A stretch of DNA of 32,366 nt, taken from Desulfobacteraceae bacterium (GTDB lineage: Bacteria; Desulfobacterota; Desulfobacteria; Desulfobacterales; ETH-SRB1). The notes below the pieces were generated by a model. That model was not told the DNA's origin, searched no databases, and worked only from the letters and a program-made list of their open reading frames with translations. The stretch is from contig JAUVHU010000025.1 in the NCBI GenBank assembly GCA_030593145.1, positions 1-32,366 on the forward strand, written 5' to 3'. Every line of letters begins with the position of its first letter. Position 1 is the stretch's first letter. Shown here in pieces: positions 1,863 to 27,052 of the stretch. Position numbers and translations under genes: made by a program.

Positions 1863-2633
1863 TTATTTCATATTATGAAATTCAACCCATATAACCGCTC
1901 CGATTTCAATATCCTTGTCTTCGCCGTTATGTTTTATTTTTTTATCCGAGGTGTTCAGCGCTGCAAAACCCCACCAACCGGCTTTTGGAGCTGCATAAGT
2001 AAAGACGCCGTTTTGATCCGCTTTTATGGTCTGTGTTACCATGTAATCTGTGGGAGCTTTAAGCTTTCCGCTCTGATTGTAATATTCGACTTCAACTTCA
2101 GCGTATGGAACAGCTTTGCCGTCCAGTTTGACAATTCCCTGGAAAACATTTCCGGCATAAAGCCCGAATGGTTTTGAAAGCGGCACTATTTCTGTTTTCA
2201 GGCCGATTTCTTCGTCCCAGCCTTCATCATCACCAAAAGCGGTGACAACAGTCTTTGTGTAATGAACTATGAAACAGTCTTCCGCAGGTTCCCAGTAAGG
2301 TTTGGGTTCCATGTAAAACATGTAAATGCCGGGTCTTTTTATCCTGTAGTCGGCCTTCCATGCAGCGTGATCCATGATCTTGGTTTTTGTGAGATTGCCA
2401 AGGAGGTTGTTTTTTTTGCCGTTGGCTATAACTCCGAAAGTTTCCGGTTTTACAAGCTCCATACCGATCCCTTCAAAAGGATGGGAAAAGGATAGTGTTA
2501 CATTTACGGTTTTGTTGTCTTCCTGCATTACCATGGAATCCGAGGGAATAACCATTCCAAAATGGGCTGATGCCGGGCCTGCCAAAATGCAGGACAATGT
2601 AAATAACAGCGCTAACATAATTCCTTTTTTCAT
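1863..2633 (-). CDS. nikK: NikK-type periplasmic DUF4198 protein of the nickel transport cluster
   Basis: 256 residues from the chosen start. The frame opens at an ATG four codons earlier, but a strong GGAGG lies inside those codons at 7-nt spacing from ATG 2633, so translation should start there ([10 protein letters not shown]). A signal peptide ends GPASA, and the mature protein would begin HFGMVIPSD. The remainder is the beta-sandwich fold of DUF4198 proteins, with His-rich positions (for example MDHAAW) and a C-terminal half resembling a carboxypeptidase-regulatory domain (about 160-250). In Desulfobacterota such proteins sit with NikM and NikL and are thought to help present nickel in the periplasm. 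First gene of the cluster, preceded by a promoter and a terminator-like leader hairpin. The nickel assignment is by context and is not proved. Confidence 0.8.
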
Positions 2634-2651
2634 AATTTCCTCCATTATTGC

Positions 2652-2707
2652 AAAAAAAAACCACGAGCTAAAGACAGTATCTTCTTGATACTAACTTACC
2701 TTCGTGG
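2652..2707 (-). terminator. Terminator-like hairpin in the nikK leader (candidate attenuator)
   Basis: Read on the minus strand, CCACGA (2707-2702) pairs with TCGTGG (2666-2661), an inner AGTATC-AAGAA-GATACT stem (2692-2676) is perfect, and the TAAG/CTTTA flanks add partial pairing. Nine T residues (2660-2652) follow at once, which is the form of an intrinsic terminator. It lies between the predicted promoter (2774-2802) and the nikK start codon (2633), so readthrough would be needed to express nikKML. It is not the end of any visible minus-strand gene. The outer stem uses CCACGAAGG words like repeat family A, so it could have evolved from a repeat. Confidence 0.65.
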
Positions 2708-2773
2708 CTTAACTTGCTGAATTTTTCTAGTTTTTTAAATACGCAACAGGCTTCAGCCTGTAATTATTGTAAA

Positions 2774-2802
2774 CATATAAATCAGGCAATAAAGTAAGTC
2801 AA
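2774..2802 (-). promoter_or_regulatory. Predicted sigma-70 promoter for nikK-nikM-nikL
   Basis: On the minus strand, TTGACT (2802-2797), a 17-nt spacer and TATATG (2779-2774) give a good -35/-10 pair. The expected start of transcription near 2767 leaves a leader of about 135 nt. That leader holds a small hairpin ACAGGC-TGAA-GCCTGT (2761-2746) and then the terminator-like hairpin. Confidence 0.55.
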
Positions 2803-4625: not shown

Positions 4626-4702
4626 TTATAAGTGCCTAAAGTTAAGGAATGCGCCTTTGGCGCAGCCAATTTCATATAAAAAGATGGAACGCAGCGACTC
4701 AA
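4626..4702. repeat. Family E repeat, copy E2 lacking its right arm
   Basis: Starts 3 bp after the argS stop. TTATAAGTGCCTAAAGTTAA, then the perfect GCGCC-TTT-GGCGC hairpin (4651-4663), then GGAACGCAGCGACTC match copy E1 in order. The TTAACTTTAG right arm of E1 is missing, and the sequence passes straight into the SPOR gene leader. Confidence 0.7.
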
Positions 4703-7287: not shown

Positions 7288-7437
7288 ACCACGAAGCTCA
7301 CGAAGAACACGAAGGGATAAAAGATAAAAAGATTAACACGAAAGCACGAAGGTACGAAAGCACGAAAAGAAATTTGTATTTACCACGAAGGGCAAAGGAT
7401 TTTTCTTTATCTTCGTGTCCTTCGTGCCCTTCGTGGT
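7288..7437. repeat. Family A repeat cluster (CACGAA words) with a perfect 13-bp hairpin
   Basis: The stretch is built of CACGAAG/CACGAAAG words. ACCACGAAGGGCA (7382-7394) and TGCCCTTCGTGGT (7425-7437) are perfect inverted copies, and AAGGA/TCCTT just inside them extends the stem. It is followed by a family B right arm CTCTGTGGTAAA (7452-7463), 25 nt before the start of the small protein gene. Confidence 0.75.
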
Positions 7438-7488
7438 AACATATTATTGTTCTCTGTGGTAAAACCCATAACAAAAGGAATTTAGGCT

Positions 7489-7668
7489 ATGACTGTTCAG
7501 CCAAAAGGGGAAAATTTGAGGAAAGCGGTAAAGTGGGTTTTAGACAAGCGGAAATATGAGCAGGAGAAAAATGTAAAGAAGCTTATAGAAGCCGCGTGTT
7601 TAAAATTCAACCTGTCGCCAAAGGATGCGGAATTTTTAGCCCACAAATTATTTGCCACGGAAGAGTAA
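7489..7668 (+). CDS. Small charged protein of unknown function, upstream of mutL
   Basis: 59 residues, beginning MTVQPKGENLRKAVKWVLDK and ending LAHKLFATEE. The start ATG has AAAGGAA and TTAGG upstream. The composition is strongly helical and charged: a first amphipathic helix (about 9-40, rich in Lys and Glu) and a second (SPKDAEFLAHKLF, about 45-57). There is no signal peptide, membrane segment or cysteine pair. The codon pattern looks coding and differs from the repeat sequence on both sides. Its small size means it may be missed by gene finders. I do not recognise a named family. It probably shares a transcript with gatA or mutL, and its role is unknown. Confidence 0.65.
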   Translation: MTVQPKGENLRKAVKWVLDKRKYEQEKNVKKLIEAACLKFNLSPKDAEFLAHKLFATEE

Positions 7669-7678
7669 AAAAGAAAAG

Positions 7679-7892
7679 ATTAACACGAAAGCACGAAAGT
7701 ACGAAAACACGAAAAAAAGCATGGTAAAAAGTTTGCTGAACTCGTAAAATGTCATTCCTAGACCAGCATCAAGTCCTGACCACTCGTAGGGAGTGTAACG
7801 CCCTGAAACAACATCACCTTCGTGTTCTTCGTGGTGCAACACACATTTCTTTTCGTGTTTTCGTACTTTCGTACTTTCGTGCTTTCGTGATT
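7679..7892. repeat. Family A long inverted repeat in the mutL leader
   Basis: Left arm 7679-7716 (ATTAACACGAAAGCACGAAA and on) and right arm 7858-7892 (ending GTGCTTTCGTGATTA) are inverted copies over about 35 bp, with small differences in the number of CACGAAAG/TACGAAAG units. The loop of about 140 nt contains a further arm, CACCTTCGTGTTCTTCGTGGTG. The right arm ends 16 nt before the mutL start codon. Confidence 0.75.
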
Positions 7893-7908
7893 ATATTTTA
7901 ATAATATC

Positions 7909-9684
7909 ATGTCTAAAATAAGAATACTTCCTGAAAACCTGTCAAACAGGATAGCTGCGGGCGAGGTCGTGGAGAGGCCGGCTTCTGTTGTAAAGGAGCT
8001 TGTCGAAAACGCGCTCGATGCGGGCAGCAGCCGGATCGCAATCGAGATTGAAAGCGGGGGCCGGTCCCTTATCCGTGTTTCAGACAACGGAATCGGCATG
8101 AACAAAGATGACGCGCTTCTTGCTATAGAGAGGTATGCGACCAGCAAAATTTACAGGGATGAAGACCTGTTTTCCATAAAGAGTCTCGGCTTCAGGGGCG
8201 AGGCGCTTCCAAGCATTGCCTCGATATCAAAATTTTCTCTTGTTACCAGGGATAAGGCTTCTGATGCAGGCGTTGAGATAATAGTCCATGGAGGAAAGAT
8301 TAAAAAGGTTTCTCAAATCGGAGCGCCTACCGGCAGCATGGTTACAGTAAAGCAGATTTTTTTTAATGTGCCCGCAAGGAGAAAGTTTTTAAAGAGCGTC
8401 AATACGGAGTTTGGGCATATCGCAGATATTATTTCAAGTATTGGGCTGGGCAGGTCTGATGTGAAATTTTTGCTAAATCACAATGGAAGGGTTGTCAAAG
8501 GCTGGTCTGTTGCATCTGATCCTTTTGACAGGGTCGTGGATGTTCTTGGCAGCGGTTTAAAAGGAGATTTGCGCAGGATAGAGTTTGATGGCAACAATAT
8601 CTCTGTGGCCGGCTGGATATCGTCATCCGGTGTTGACCGGACCACATCTCGGGGAATCTATGTATATGTGAACGGCAGGTTTGTGCGGGACAGGGTTGTT
8701 CAGCATGCCCTGTTTGAAGGATATGAACAAAGATTGATGAAGGGCAGATTTCCTGTGGCGGTTCTTTTTATTAATCTGCCGCATGACCGGGTGGATGTAA
8801 ATGTTCATCCGGCAAAGCAGGAGGTCAGGTTTGCTGAGCAAAACACGGTTCATGAAGCTGTAAAGGAGGCTGTGAAAAGGGGATTGGAAATCGTTGAAAG
8901 GGCGGGATGGAGCGACAGACCATTGCCCATGCAGGAAAAGCTTTCTGTTTCCGAGCCTGTTGCCGGTTATCGCAGCTTTCCAGCTTCTTTTTCCGATTCC
9001 TTTTCCGACTTCCGACCCCGCCAGACTGACGGCGGGCAAGCTCCGACTTCCGATCTCCGACCTCCTGCTATCGAACAGGCGCAAATCTGGGATAAAAAAG
9101 CTTTTGGCGATTTGAATGTAATTGGCCGGTTTCATGATACATACATAGTCTGCGAGTCGGATAAGGAGCTTGTGATTATTGACCAGCATGCAGCCCATGA
9201 GAGGATTGTGTATGAGCAGCTAAAGAGCAGTTCAATTGCCGCAAAAGGAGAATCCCAGAGACTGCTTGTTCCTGAAACAGTTGACCTGGGATATAAAGAG
9301 GCGGCCATACTTGAAAAGCTGATTCCTGATTTAAAGGAGACCGGCCTTGAAATAGAACCCTTTGGTTCAGGCGTCTTTGTGGTAAAGGCTGTGCCGGCCG
9401 TTCTTGTCGGCATGGAGATCAGACCGCTTGTTATCGAGATTACGGAAAAAATCGCAGAAACAGGTTTTGGGTCTGGCATTGAAAAAGCCATTGACAAATG
9501 CCTGATTCTTATGGCTTGCCACGGTGCAATCAGGGCAAACCAGGCACTTTCCGATAAAGAGATAAAAGGTCTTCTCGACCAGCTTGATAAATGCAAAAAT
9601 CCCTCCCATTGTCCGCATGGCCGGCCTACATGGATAAGGTGGAGTAAAGGAGAGGTTGAGAAAATGTTTGGAAGAGTAGTTTAG
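7909..9684 (+). CDS. mutL: DNA mismatch repair protein MutL
   Basis: 591 residues. N-terminal GHKL ATPase: IAAGEVVERPASVVKELVEN (E30 and N34 are the catalytic and Mg-binding positions), DNGIGM, and YATSKI ... LGFRGEALPSIAS, followed by the ribosomal S5-like domain ending VDVNVHPAKQEVRF. The C-terminal dimerisation and endonuclease domain shows DQHAAHERIVYE (425-436), which fits the metal-binding DQHA-X2-E-X4-E motif, plus ACHGAIRANQAL and CPHGRP. The protein should therefore be a nicking MutL of the type found in bacteria without MutH. The linker (about 350-390) contains translated repeat sequence (SDSFSDFRPRQTDGG...). No good ribosome binding site is visible. mutS is not in the window. Confidence 0.96.
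   Translation: MSKIRILPENLSNRIAAGEVVERPASVVKELVENALDAGSSRIAIEIESGGRSLIRVSDNGIGMNKDDALLAIERYATSKIYRDEDLFSIKSLGFRGEALPSIASISKFSLVTRDKASDAGVEIIVHGGKIKKVSQIGAPTGSMVTVKQIFFNVPARRKFLKSVNTEFGHIADIISSIGLGRSDVKFLLNHNGRVVKGWSVASDPFDRVVDVLGSGLKGDLRRIEFDGNNISVAGWISSSGVDRTTSRGIYVYVNGRFVRDRVVQHALFEGYEQRLMKGRFPVAVLFINLPHDRVDVNVHPAKQEVRFAEQNTVHEAVKEAVKRGLEIVERAGWSDRPLPMQEKLSVSEPVAGYRSFPASFSDSFSDFRPRQTDGGQAPTSDLRPPAIEQAQIWDKKAFGDLNVIGRFHDTYIVCESDKELVIIDQHAAHERIVYEQLKSSSIAAKGESQRLLVPETVDLGYKEAAILEKLIPDLKETGLEIEPFGSGVFVVKAVPAVLVGMEIRPLVIEITEKIAETGFGSGIEKAIDKCLILMACHGAIRANQALSDKEIKGLLDQLDKCKNPSHCPHGRPTWIRWSKGEVEKMFGRVV
8985..9066 (+). repeat. Family C repeat (TCCGACTTCCGA words) inside the mutL coding sequence
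   Basis: The words TTCCGATTCC, TTCCGACTTCCGACC and CTCCGACTTCCGATCTCCGA follow one another. They enclose a perfect hairpin, CCCGCC (9017-9022) and GGCGGG (9031-9036). Intergenic members of this family occur at 14003-14033, 17849-17886 and 19172-19194. Here it is in frame with mutL, codes for about 27 residues of the interdomain linker and introduces no stop. Confidence 0.7.
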
Positions 9685-9942: not shown

Positions 9943-12126
9943 ATGATAAGTAATGAGACGCAAAAATCCCCTTTTTTTACCCTGCGCCGCGAAGGCGTGG
10001 TCTGCCTGTTTCTTGTCATAGCTATACTTGCTGTTTACTGGCAGGTCGGGAATCATAAATTTGTTAATTACGATGACAAAGATTATATCACAGAGAATCA
10101 ATATGTGCAGGCAGGGCTGACTTTAAAGAGCATTGCCTGGGCTTTTACATCTACAGATGTCGGCAACTGGCATCCACTGACATGGCTGTCTCATATGCTG
10201 GATTGTCAGATTTACGGTTTAAACCCTGGTGGTCATCATTTCACAAGTGTATTTTTTCATATCTTAAATTCCATCCTGCTTTTTCTAATTTTTAAAAGAA
10301 TGACAGGGGCTTTTTGGGAAAGCGCCTTTGTCGCGGCGTTTTTTGCTCTTCATCCCCTTCATGTGGAGTCTGTTGCGTGGGCGGCGGAACGCAAGGATGT
10401 TTTGAGCACATTTTTCTGGATGCTGACCATGGGCGCTTATATCCTCTATGTTGAAAATCCAGGCATAAAAAAACACCTGCTCACTGTTTTATTGTTTGCT
10501 CTGGGCCTTATGGCCAAGCCCATGCTGATAACCCTGCCTTTTGTACTGCTTCTTTTGGACTACTGGCCTCTTGGCCGTTTTGAGATTAAAAATTTGGATA
10601 CTACTCAAGGTTCAGAAGAAAACCTGCTGAAAAACACTAAAAGCAAAAAAAGAAAGTCCCGAAAACGCCTTGCAAGAAACGTAGCGCAAGCGAAGAAGAC
10701 CACAGGATTTAATTATCAGTGGTCACTTGCGCTCCCGCTTGTTTGGGAGAAAATTCCCTTGTTTGTTCTTGCAGCAGTATCAAGCATTGTAACCTTTTTC
10801 GTTCAGCAAAGCGGAGGGGCAGTAAGCTCTTTAGATGTATTGCCGCTTTTTATCAGGATTTCCAATGCCCTTGTTTCATATATAAGCTACATCGTAAAAA
10901 TGATTTTACCATATAATCTGGCGGTTCTTTATCCCCATCCAAAAGATTTTTCAATGTGGCAGGTTGCGGGAGCCTGCTTACTGCTTGCATTCATATCTTT
11001 TATGGCAGTTAAAACTTTTAAAAGACGTCCTTATTTTTTGGTGGGATGGCTGTGGTATTTAGGGACTCTTGTGCTTGTAATCGGGCTGGTGCAGGTAGGA
11101 GCGCAGTCTATGGCTGACCGGTACACATATATACCGCTCACAGGCATTTTTATTATTATCGCGTGGGGTGTTTCAGATCTTATAGCAGGGTGGCGGTATA
11201 AAAAGGAGGGGCTTGCCGCAGTGTCGGGAATTATCATTTCAACTTTAATGGTAATAACATGGTTTCAGTTAAGGCACTGGACTAACGGTATTACACTTTT
11301 TAGTCATGCAATTAATGTTACCGAGAACAATTCGATAGCGCACAATAACCTTGGGAATGCTCTCAAAAACCAGGGCAAGATATCTGAAGCCATTAAACAC
11401 TATACCGAGGCTTTGCGGATCAAGCCAAGGCGTGCGAAGGTACACAGTAATCTTGGGAACGCTCTTGCAGATCAAGGCAAAACATCTGAAGCCATCAGGC
11501 ATTATTATGAGGCGTTGCGGATCAAGCCAAACTATGTGCTCGCACACAACAATCTTGGAAATGTTTTCGCAAGCCAGAGCAAACTATCTGAAGCCATTAA
11601 ACATTATATTGAGGCGCTGCGGATCAAACCTGATTTTGCGAAGGCACACAATAACCTTGGGAATGCTCTCGCAGGTCAGAACAGGATATCTGAGGCTATT
11701 AAACATTATATCGAGGCGTTACGGATAGAGCCTGATAATGCTGAAACCCAAAGCAATCTTAAAAAGGTATCAGCATTGTTAAAGGAAATAGATGAGGCTG
11801 TTAAAAGACTACAGGAATTACTTGAAGTTAATCCAGAAGATCCTGAGCTGCATTATGATTTAGGGACTTTGTATTATAAGAAAGGGGAATTTGATAAAGC
11901 CATTTATCAATACCGGAAATCGTTGTCAATTCAACCGGACAATCCCGGCACTTATTATAATCTTGCCTGTATGTACTCAATACAAAACAGGGTGGAAAAA
12001 TCGATTGATTTTCTTAAGAAAGCTATCGAGAAGGGTTATGACAACTGGGAGCATATAAGAAATGACAGGGATCTGGAGAATGTAAGGGGTTCGTCGGGAT
12101 ACAAAAAACTTCTGAGTAGTCACTGA
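9943..12126 (+). CDS. TMTC-like polytopic membrane protein with C-terminal TPR repeats
   Basis: 727 residues. The first about 455 residues form a polytopic membrane region with roughly ten helices. It has the conserved bacterial TMTC-like signatures FVNYDDKDYITEN, NWHPLTWLSHMLD, HHFTSVFFHILN, FALHPLHVESVAWAAERKDV and GAQSMADRYTYIPL. A Lys/Arg-rich cytoplasmic loop lies at about 225-250. The C-terminal part carries four near-identical 34-residue TPRs (465-600), a degenerate segment and two more TPRs (about 635-702). The eukaryotic TMTC relatives are O-mannosyltransferases, so a glycosyltransferase acting at the membrane is a reasonable inference, but donor and acceptor are unknown. No glycan gene cluster surrounds it. 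Followed by an intrinsic terminator. Confidence 0.8.
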   Translation: MISNETQKSPFFTLRREGVVCLFLVIAILAVYWQVGNHKFVNYDDKDYITENQYVQAGLTLKSIAWAFTSTDVGNWHPLTWLSHMLDCQIYGLNPGGHHFTSVFFHILNSILLFLIFKRMTGAFWESAFVAAFFALHPLHVESVAWAAERKDVLSTFFWMLTMGAYILYVENPGIKKHLLTVLLFALGLMAKPMLITLPFVLLLLDYWPLGRFEIKNLDTTQGSEENLLKNTKSKKRKSRKRLARNVAQAKKTTGFNYQWSLALPLVWEKIPLFVLAAVSSIVTFFVQQSGGAVSSLDVLPLFIRISNALVSYISYIVKMILPYNLAVLYPHPKDFSMWQVAGACLLLAFISFMAVKTFKRRPYFLVGWLWYLGTLVLVIGLVQVGAQSMADRYTYIPLTGIFIIIAWGVSDLIAGWRYKKEGLAAVSGIIISTLMVITWFQLRHWTNGITLFSHAINVTENNSIAHNNLGNALKNQGKISEAIKHYTEALRIKPRRAKVHSNLGNALADQGKTSEAIRHYYEALRIKPNYVLAHNNLGNVFASQSKLSEAIKHYIEALRIKPDFAKAHNNLGNALAGQNRISEAIKHYIEALRIEPDNAETQSNLKKVSALLKEIDEAVKRLQELLEVNPEDPELHYDLGTLYYKKGEFDKAIYQYRKSLSIQPDNPGTYYNLACMYSIQNRVEKSIDFLKKAIEKGYDNWEHIRNDRDLENVRGSSGYKKLLSSH
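11335..11742 (+). repeat. Four tandem 102-bp units encoding TPRs
   Basis: Four consecutive 102-bp units share words such as AATAACCTTGGGAATGCTCT, ATCTGAAGCCATTAAACA and GCGGATCAAGCC. They encode units of the form AHNNLGNALxxQxKxSEAIK followed by HYxEALRIKPxxxx. Similarity at DNA level indicates recent duplication or gene conversion, so copy number may vary between strains. Confidence 0.85.
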
Positions 12127-26711: not shown

Positions 26712-26999
26712 CAGAAATTTACAAACTCAAAAAAGTGTGTTTTATAATTCCATTACTCCGCAGACAGGCAATTAAATTTGAAAAAGTCTGAAACTCACAC
26801 AACAAGTGACCCTAAAGAAAAAACAGCATACAAAAACATAAGAAAACTGCTTTTGTCAGTTGAAATTAATAAATAATACCAAAGATGTCTTATAATCGGC
26901 TGTTTTTTCTTAAGGCTCACTAATGCGTTCAAACAGTCAGCCATTTTCAAATTTAATTGCCTGTCCGCTCCGTAGTAAAAATGAGTTTGTAAATTTCTG
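26712..26999. mobile_element. Family H: 288-bp MITE-like element between hypA and hypB
   Basis: Ends are an 18-bp perfect inverted repeat: CAGAAATTTACAAACTCA (26712-26729) and its complement (26982-26999). A second inverted pair lies inside (AGGCAATTAAATTTGAAAA near 26765-26783 and its complement near 26943-26961), and a third, AAAGAAAAAACAGC (26814-26827), pairs with GCTGTTTTTTCTT (26899-26911). GTTTT flanks both ends directly (26707-26711 and 27000-27004), consistent with a 5-bp target duplication, although the flank is itself repetitive (TTTTCGTG words of family A). It has no coding capacity of note. A diverged partial copy is at 139-330. Confidence 0.75.
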
Positions 27000-27052
27000 G
27001 TTTTCGTACTTTCGTGTTTTCGTGATTAATTTTAAAGCAAAAGGATATCAAC

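Follow-up and report, generated by a model that had tools for sequence, protein, structure and literature searches.

A conserved leader RNA upstream of nickel/cobalt-uptake genes in Desulfobacterales, a probable transcription attenuator

Sulphate reducers take up nickel for their hydrogenases and CO dehydrogenase, and in delta-proteobacteria the uptake operons nikMNQO and nikKMLQO are regulated by NikR (Rodionov 2004, PMC545781). The nikKML genes of a Desulfobacteraceae bacterium, located in the 32,366-nucleotide stretch of DNA analyzed here (the window), raise the question of how such genes are controlled when a terminator lies between their promoter and the ribosome binding site of nikK. A first-pass annotation of this DNA had noted the promoter, a small hairpin, and a larger hairpin followed by nine U residues, and had proposed either an undescribed, metal-responsive attenuator or a repeat that had turned into a terminator. 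We recovered all of these parts, although the -10 is weak, together with a third mini-hairpin (HP2, 2708-2698), mutually exclusive with the terminator, which the annotation had missed and which is the informative part of the leader. We conclude that the leader almost certainly belongs to a new family of conserved, structured RNAs that control nickel/cobalt uptake by transcription attenuation.

Architecture of the nikK leader

Table 1. Features of the nikK leader and of the genes that follow it (positions in the window)
Feature	Position	Strand	Basis
-35 hexamer TTGACT	2797-2802	minus	sequence; TTGACA kept in relatives
-10-like TATATG	2774-2779	minus	sequence; spacer to -35 of 17 nt
HP1, ACAGGC-UGAA-GCCUGU, loop NGAA	2746-2761	minus	folding and covariation
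A/U-rich linker from HP1 to HP2, sequence not conserved	2709-2745	minus	family length and information content
HP2, antiterminator mini-hairpin GCC-ACGAA-GGU	2698-2708	minus	covariation, loop conservation, -2.1 kcal/mol alone
Intrinsic terminator stem, GCCACGA with UCGUGGU, HP3 inside	2660-2708	minus	-20.5 kcal/mol, z -5.0; covariation
HP3, UAGUAUC-AAGAA-GAUACUG, distal part of terminator	2675-2693	minus	covariation
Nine-U run, first U able to pair with the stem	2652-2660	minus	sequence
Ribosome binding site GGAGG for the ATG at 2633	2639-2643	minus	sequence
nikK (DUF4198)	1863-2633	minus	Pfam PF10670, E 1.5e-63
nikM/cbiM	1112-1717	minus	Pfam PF01891, E 4e-58
nikL-like gene	432-1085	minus	position and homologues in relatives' nikKMLQO operons

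The -10-like hexamer matches the consensus at four of six positions and is weak alone; the promoter implies a putative transcription start at about position 2767, just before HP1. The nikK promoter, whose -10 lacks a final T, and the terminator, whose stem is interrupted, are for these reasons both missing from the output of a simple scan of the window, but both are backed by conservation in relatives. The nikK coding sequence likely starts at 2633, which fits the ribosome binding site, although the open frame begins at 2645. We note that, unlike in many relatives, no nikQ or nikO follows nikL in positions 1-432 of the window; these genes must lie elsewhere in this incomplete genome or be missing from it.

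The 58-nt terminator, a stable stem followed by the U run, has the properties of an intrinsic terminator, folding at -20.5 kcal/mol compared with -8.5 ± 2.4 kcal/mol in dinucleotide shuffles (0/200), and the entire 163-nt leader also folds better than shuffled sequence (z -2.5). The 5' arm of the terminator doubles as the 5' arm of HP2, and the two structures are therefore mutually exclusive. As the terminator is far more stable than HP2 alone, the off state is predicted to be the default.

The window also holds several repeats. A 57-nt intergenic repeat (93% identical) occurs at 1748-1804 and 4626-4682, with one copy inside the nikK-nikM gap; tracts of CACGAAAG/TTTCGTGC repeats with an 8-nt period lie between genes in both orientations (7312-7909 and 26994-27036); a tandem repeat of 102-nt period with copies 71-74% alike spans 11326-11733; and a 188-nt direct repeat (87% identical) has its copies far apart, at 142-329 and 26818-27005.

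Conservation and covariation of the element

The hairpin is found directly before nikK in 58 relatives across the order Desulfobacterales (the order as judged from named relatives and lineage). When 30 nikK leaders were picked by protein alone, independently of leader sequence, an HP1-type hairpin (at least 5 bp, with an (A)NGAA loop) was present 5' of the terminator in 21 of them, compared with 2.3% of shuffles, and the motif CC(A/G)NGAAGG in 22, compared with 0.1% of shuffles. In an alignment of 24 leaders, both sides had changed in 12 of 18 base pairs (5.0 ± 1.6 in shuffles), and the covariation score of 0.340 (0.217 ± 0.012 in shuffles) was reached by none of 500 shuffles, with slid controls giving at most 0.092; one terminator pair, 77/116, forms in just 19 of the 24. 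The covariance model built from this alignment (R1) matches 182 of the 291 Desulfobacterales genomes at E <= 0.01 and 39 of 395 genomes of the phylum, families outside the order included, at E <= 0.001. The E-values are rough, and some hits close to the cut-off could be fortuitous. Cultured species with the element include Desulfonema magnum and Desulfatibacillum alkenivorans. An exact TTGACA lies upstream of 97 of the 146 members collected, nearly always 37-45 nt before HP1, and transcripts should therefore begin just before HP1. The distance from the end of the element to the next reading frame has a median of 17 nt.

These results bear directly on the repeat proposed in the first-pass annotation, and on the related idea that an ordinary terminator, or a dispersed CACGAAG-type repeat, merely chances to precede nikK. 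CACGAAG-type tracts are indeed common in the window, but the hairpin occurs once in its own genome (a search of 2.48 Mb in 111 contigs gave no second copy), covaries across the phylum and keeps its short distance to the regulated gene. We consider such a coincidence hardly credible, and it is refuted as an explanation of the element family.

HP2 and the terminator were recognized by pattern in 132 of the 146 members, the other 14 being without the standard arrangement. In the 132, the alternative mini-hairpin reads (A/G)CC-ACGAA-GG(U/C) and is closed by the (A/G)CC of the terminator 5' arm; 113 members have the loop ACGAA and 12 have AUGAA. The bases at alignment positions 72/82/121 are A-U-U in 64 members, G-C-C in 24, G-U-C in 14, G-U-U in 12, and G-C-U in 9, which indicates that one base tracks both its HP2 and its terminator partner. 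HP1 in its strict form is missing from 13 of the 132 members. HP1 is part of the model, and its presence in the model's hits is thus partly selected. The stem sequences of HP1 are free, and its loop, in statistics restricted to loops that end in GAA, is NGAA in 90 cases, five nucleotides long (mostly ANGAA) in 24, and a hexaloop in 5, so that 114 of 119 loops have four or five nucleotides. HP1 and HP2 thus have the (A)NGAA motif in common. The conserved letters are confined to the hairpin loops and adjoining short stems, and the rest of the leader is hardly conserved: the linker that separates HP1 from HP2 has a median length of 37 nt (10-90% range 32-46) and mostly carries less than 0.6 bit per position. 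HP3 is missing or replaced in distant members. Further, in Desulfatibacillum alkenivorans, HP1 and HP2 are kept but it is the 3' arm of HP2 with which the terminator overlaps, and at three other loci (L113, L120, and L247) the overlap is between a terminator-like arm and the 3' arm of HP3. That the competition survives such rearrangements supports the view that competition between hairpin and terminator, and not a particular terminator sequence, is the conserved feature.

Genes behind the element and the distribution of NikR

Gene content was counted in 113 members found by the model, with the nikK seeds left out. The first gene encodes a DUF4198 protein in 57 of these, CbiM in 11, a TonB plug protein in 7, FmdE in 5, SBP_bac_5 and Peripla_BP_2 proteins in 2 each, and FecCD in 1; methyltransferases and porin-like proteins are also found among the genes after the element. 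In L102 and L128, the SBP_bac_5 gene is followed by reading frames resembling DppB/C-type permeases. Proteins of the FmdE family, or similar to it, turn up repeatedly at or close to operons under the element's control (L116, L200, L201, L176, L178, and L180), which suggests that FmdE-family proteins have a role in nickel handling. A SAM-dependent methyltransferase is encoded by the first gene after the element in L099, L132, and L210, in the first case adjoining a Fe/B12-type binding protein, and these loci are possible nickel-chelate uptake clusters.

NikR has the same target genes as the element but is a DNA-binding repressor, and it was rejected as the regulator here: no NikR gene was found in the bacterium's own genome, and a search of the leader for the operator GTGTTAC-N13/14-GTAACAC, or its reversed or enterobacterial form, gave a best match with 5 of 14 positions mismatched. 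This agrees with the first-pass annotation, which had seen no clear NikR site. Very few genomes of the order have NikR (4 of 291), compared with 181 of the 395 genomes sampled from the phylum. In the phylum sample it occurs in 2 of 39 element-bearing genomes and in 179 of the 356 others (Fisher p 8e-9, phylogeny ignored), a pattern that is partly a clade difference. In one of the two genomes with both, the element copy hardly differs from one in another family (L196 and L197) and may be contamination. We infer the response to metal from gene content and from this complementary distribution, which favours nickel as the signal; the signal is probably nickel rather than cobalt, with cobalt as a possible alternative. 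The undescribed attenuator of the first-pass annotation is supported, its repeat is not, and its presumed metal responsiveness takes its support from these two lines of evidence.

A model of antitermination and its rivals

The element likely acts by antitermination through HP2. In the scheme that we favour, and hold with moderate confidence, a protein stabilizes HP1 and HP2 when nickel is scarce. Transcription would begin just upstream of HP1, and by default the RNA would fold into the terminator, so that transcription would end at the U run, short of the ribosome binding site of nikK. Under nickel shortage, a trans-acting RNA-binding protein would recognize the (A)NGAA loops, first in HP1 and next in HP2, as they emerge, hold HP2 closed, and thereby occupy the terminator 5' arm, and the polymerase would read into nikKML. 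That the effector is a protein seems fairly probable: we place it ahead of direct metal sensing since conservation is limited to the repeated hairpins, and ahead of a metabolite since, in addition, the linker varies in length and sequence and both hairpins have the same loop motif. The effector presumably acts positively. Clustering of 354 reading frames from 19-kb neighbourhoods of nik operons returned only transporter genes and unrelated synteny, and no adjacent regulator. An informal look at the leaders revealed no conserved short frame of a leader peptide, and CsrA was set aside as effector, the GGA motif not being constant in the loops.

The leader RNA might instead itself bind Ni2+, Co2+ or a corrinoid and shift the balance between HP2 and terminator with no protein at all. 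The absence of a regulator beside the operons is consistent with such a riboswitch, as is a compact cis element that is widespread before metal-uptake genes. The NiCo (czcD) riboswitch, whose RNA forms a four-way junction and governs export genes, resembles the element in acting at the RNA level on nickel/cobalt homeostasis genes, but the element is without a junction and without an Rfam match. A scan with the covariance models of all Rfam families gave no match in the window at the gathering threshold and no relevant match at lax thresholds; the first-pass annotation had likewise recognized no known riboswitch. In other proteobacteria, some of the NikK1ML1QO operons follow a cobalamin riboswitch (PMC2667541), whereas none was matched in the window or in eight related loci scanned, and L102, L108, and L110 are not accompanied by one. 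Further, a conserved junction or core is missing from the element, its linker is poorly conserved and variable in length, and a loop repeated in two or three hairpins is what one typically sees at binding sites for proteins. We therefore regard direct sensing by the RNA as unlikely. The geometry would also allow the opposite sign, with a nickel-loaded protein binding HP1 or HP3 to favour the terminator and readthrough as the default; but with HP2 so much weaker than the terminator, unaided readthrough is unlikely, and the conservation of HP2 would be left unexplained, which makes this arrangement distinctly improbable.

A closer comparison is with the dual-hairpin antiterminators bound by ANTAR-domain proteins (EutV/eut, NasR/nasF, AmiR/amiE), in which, as here, two hairpins share a loop motif containing G and two purines, the second hairpin and the terminator 5' arm overlap, and the sites are spread over a regulon. 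A canonical ANTAR protein, such as the GAF-ANTAR proteins of Desulfobacterales, could then be the one that binds HP1 and HP2. The wiring matches the eut antiterminators (PMC8934654, PMC3369931), their site AGC-AANGRR-GCUY is similar to C-(A)NGAA-G, and AANGAA hexaloops occur in a few distant members. HP1 and HP2 do form the pair of stem-loops, each with 3 bp or more, that defines ANTAR targets, with the second overlapping an intrinsic terminator; however, the definition includes hexaloops with A1 and G4 and a linker of 2-25 nt (PMC8164766), and the (A)NGAA loops of four or five nucleotides in HP1 and five in HP2, like the longer linker, fall outside it. The regulon also differs, being nickel/cobalt uptake, and 70 of the 182 element-bearing genomes are without an ANTAR match (Fisher p 0.07). 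In 12 of these 70, complete genomes included, a lax search found none above the cut-off; the weak ANTAR-like match that two of them share falls within an HDOD/GAF-like protein and seems fortuitous. An ANTAR protein was rejected as the general effector on these co-occurrence results. The bacterium's own genome does encode an ANTAR protein, but its gene adjoins glutamate synthase. This gene, a sensor-ANTAR fusion whose sensor is GAF-like by eye and not by Pfam, lies on contig C8 (L159:1882-2790) and immediately precedes a glutamate synthase-like gene, in whose leader the ordinary hexaloops AAUGGA and AAAGGC overlap a terminator; the arrangement is similar in L166 and L167. Canonical ANTAR control of the element is thus very unlikely.

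Returning to antitermination by a protein that holds HP2 closed, we put the chances about even that, in much of the Desulfobacterota, an RNA-level nickel regulon, built from dual-hairpin antiterminators and a new class of nickel-responsive RNA-binding protein, has taken the place of NikR. We found no description of the element in the literature, in a search with thin coverage of subscription papers and preprints, nor of any replacement for NikR in the Desulfobacterales, which are almost without it. The element is a probable answer to how the nickel-uptake genes of this order are controlled. With it, a nickel regulon can be recognized in the sequence alone, one that takes in outer-membrane receptors, FmdE proteins, and methyltransferases of uncertain substrate, and it points to an undiscovered RNA-binding regulator that could be fished for with the RNA as bait.
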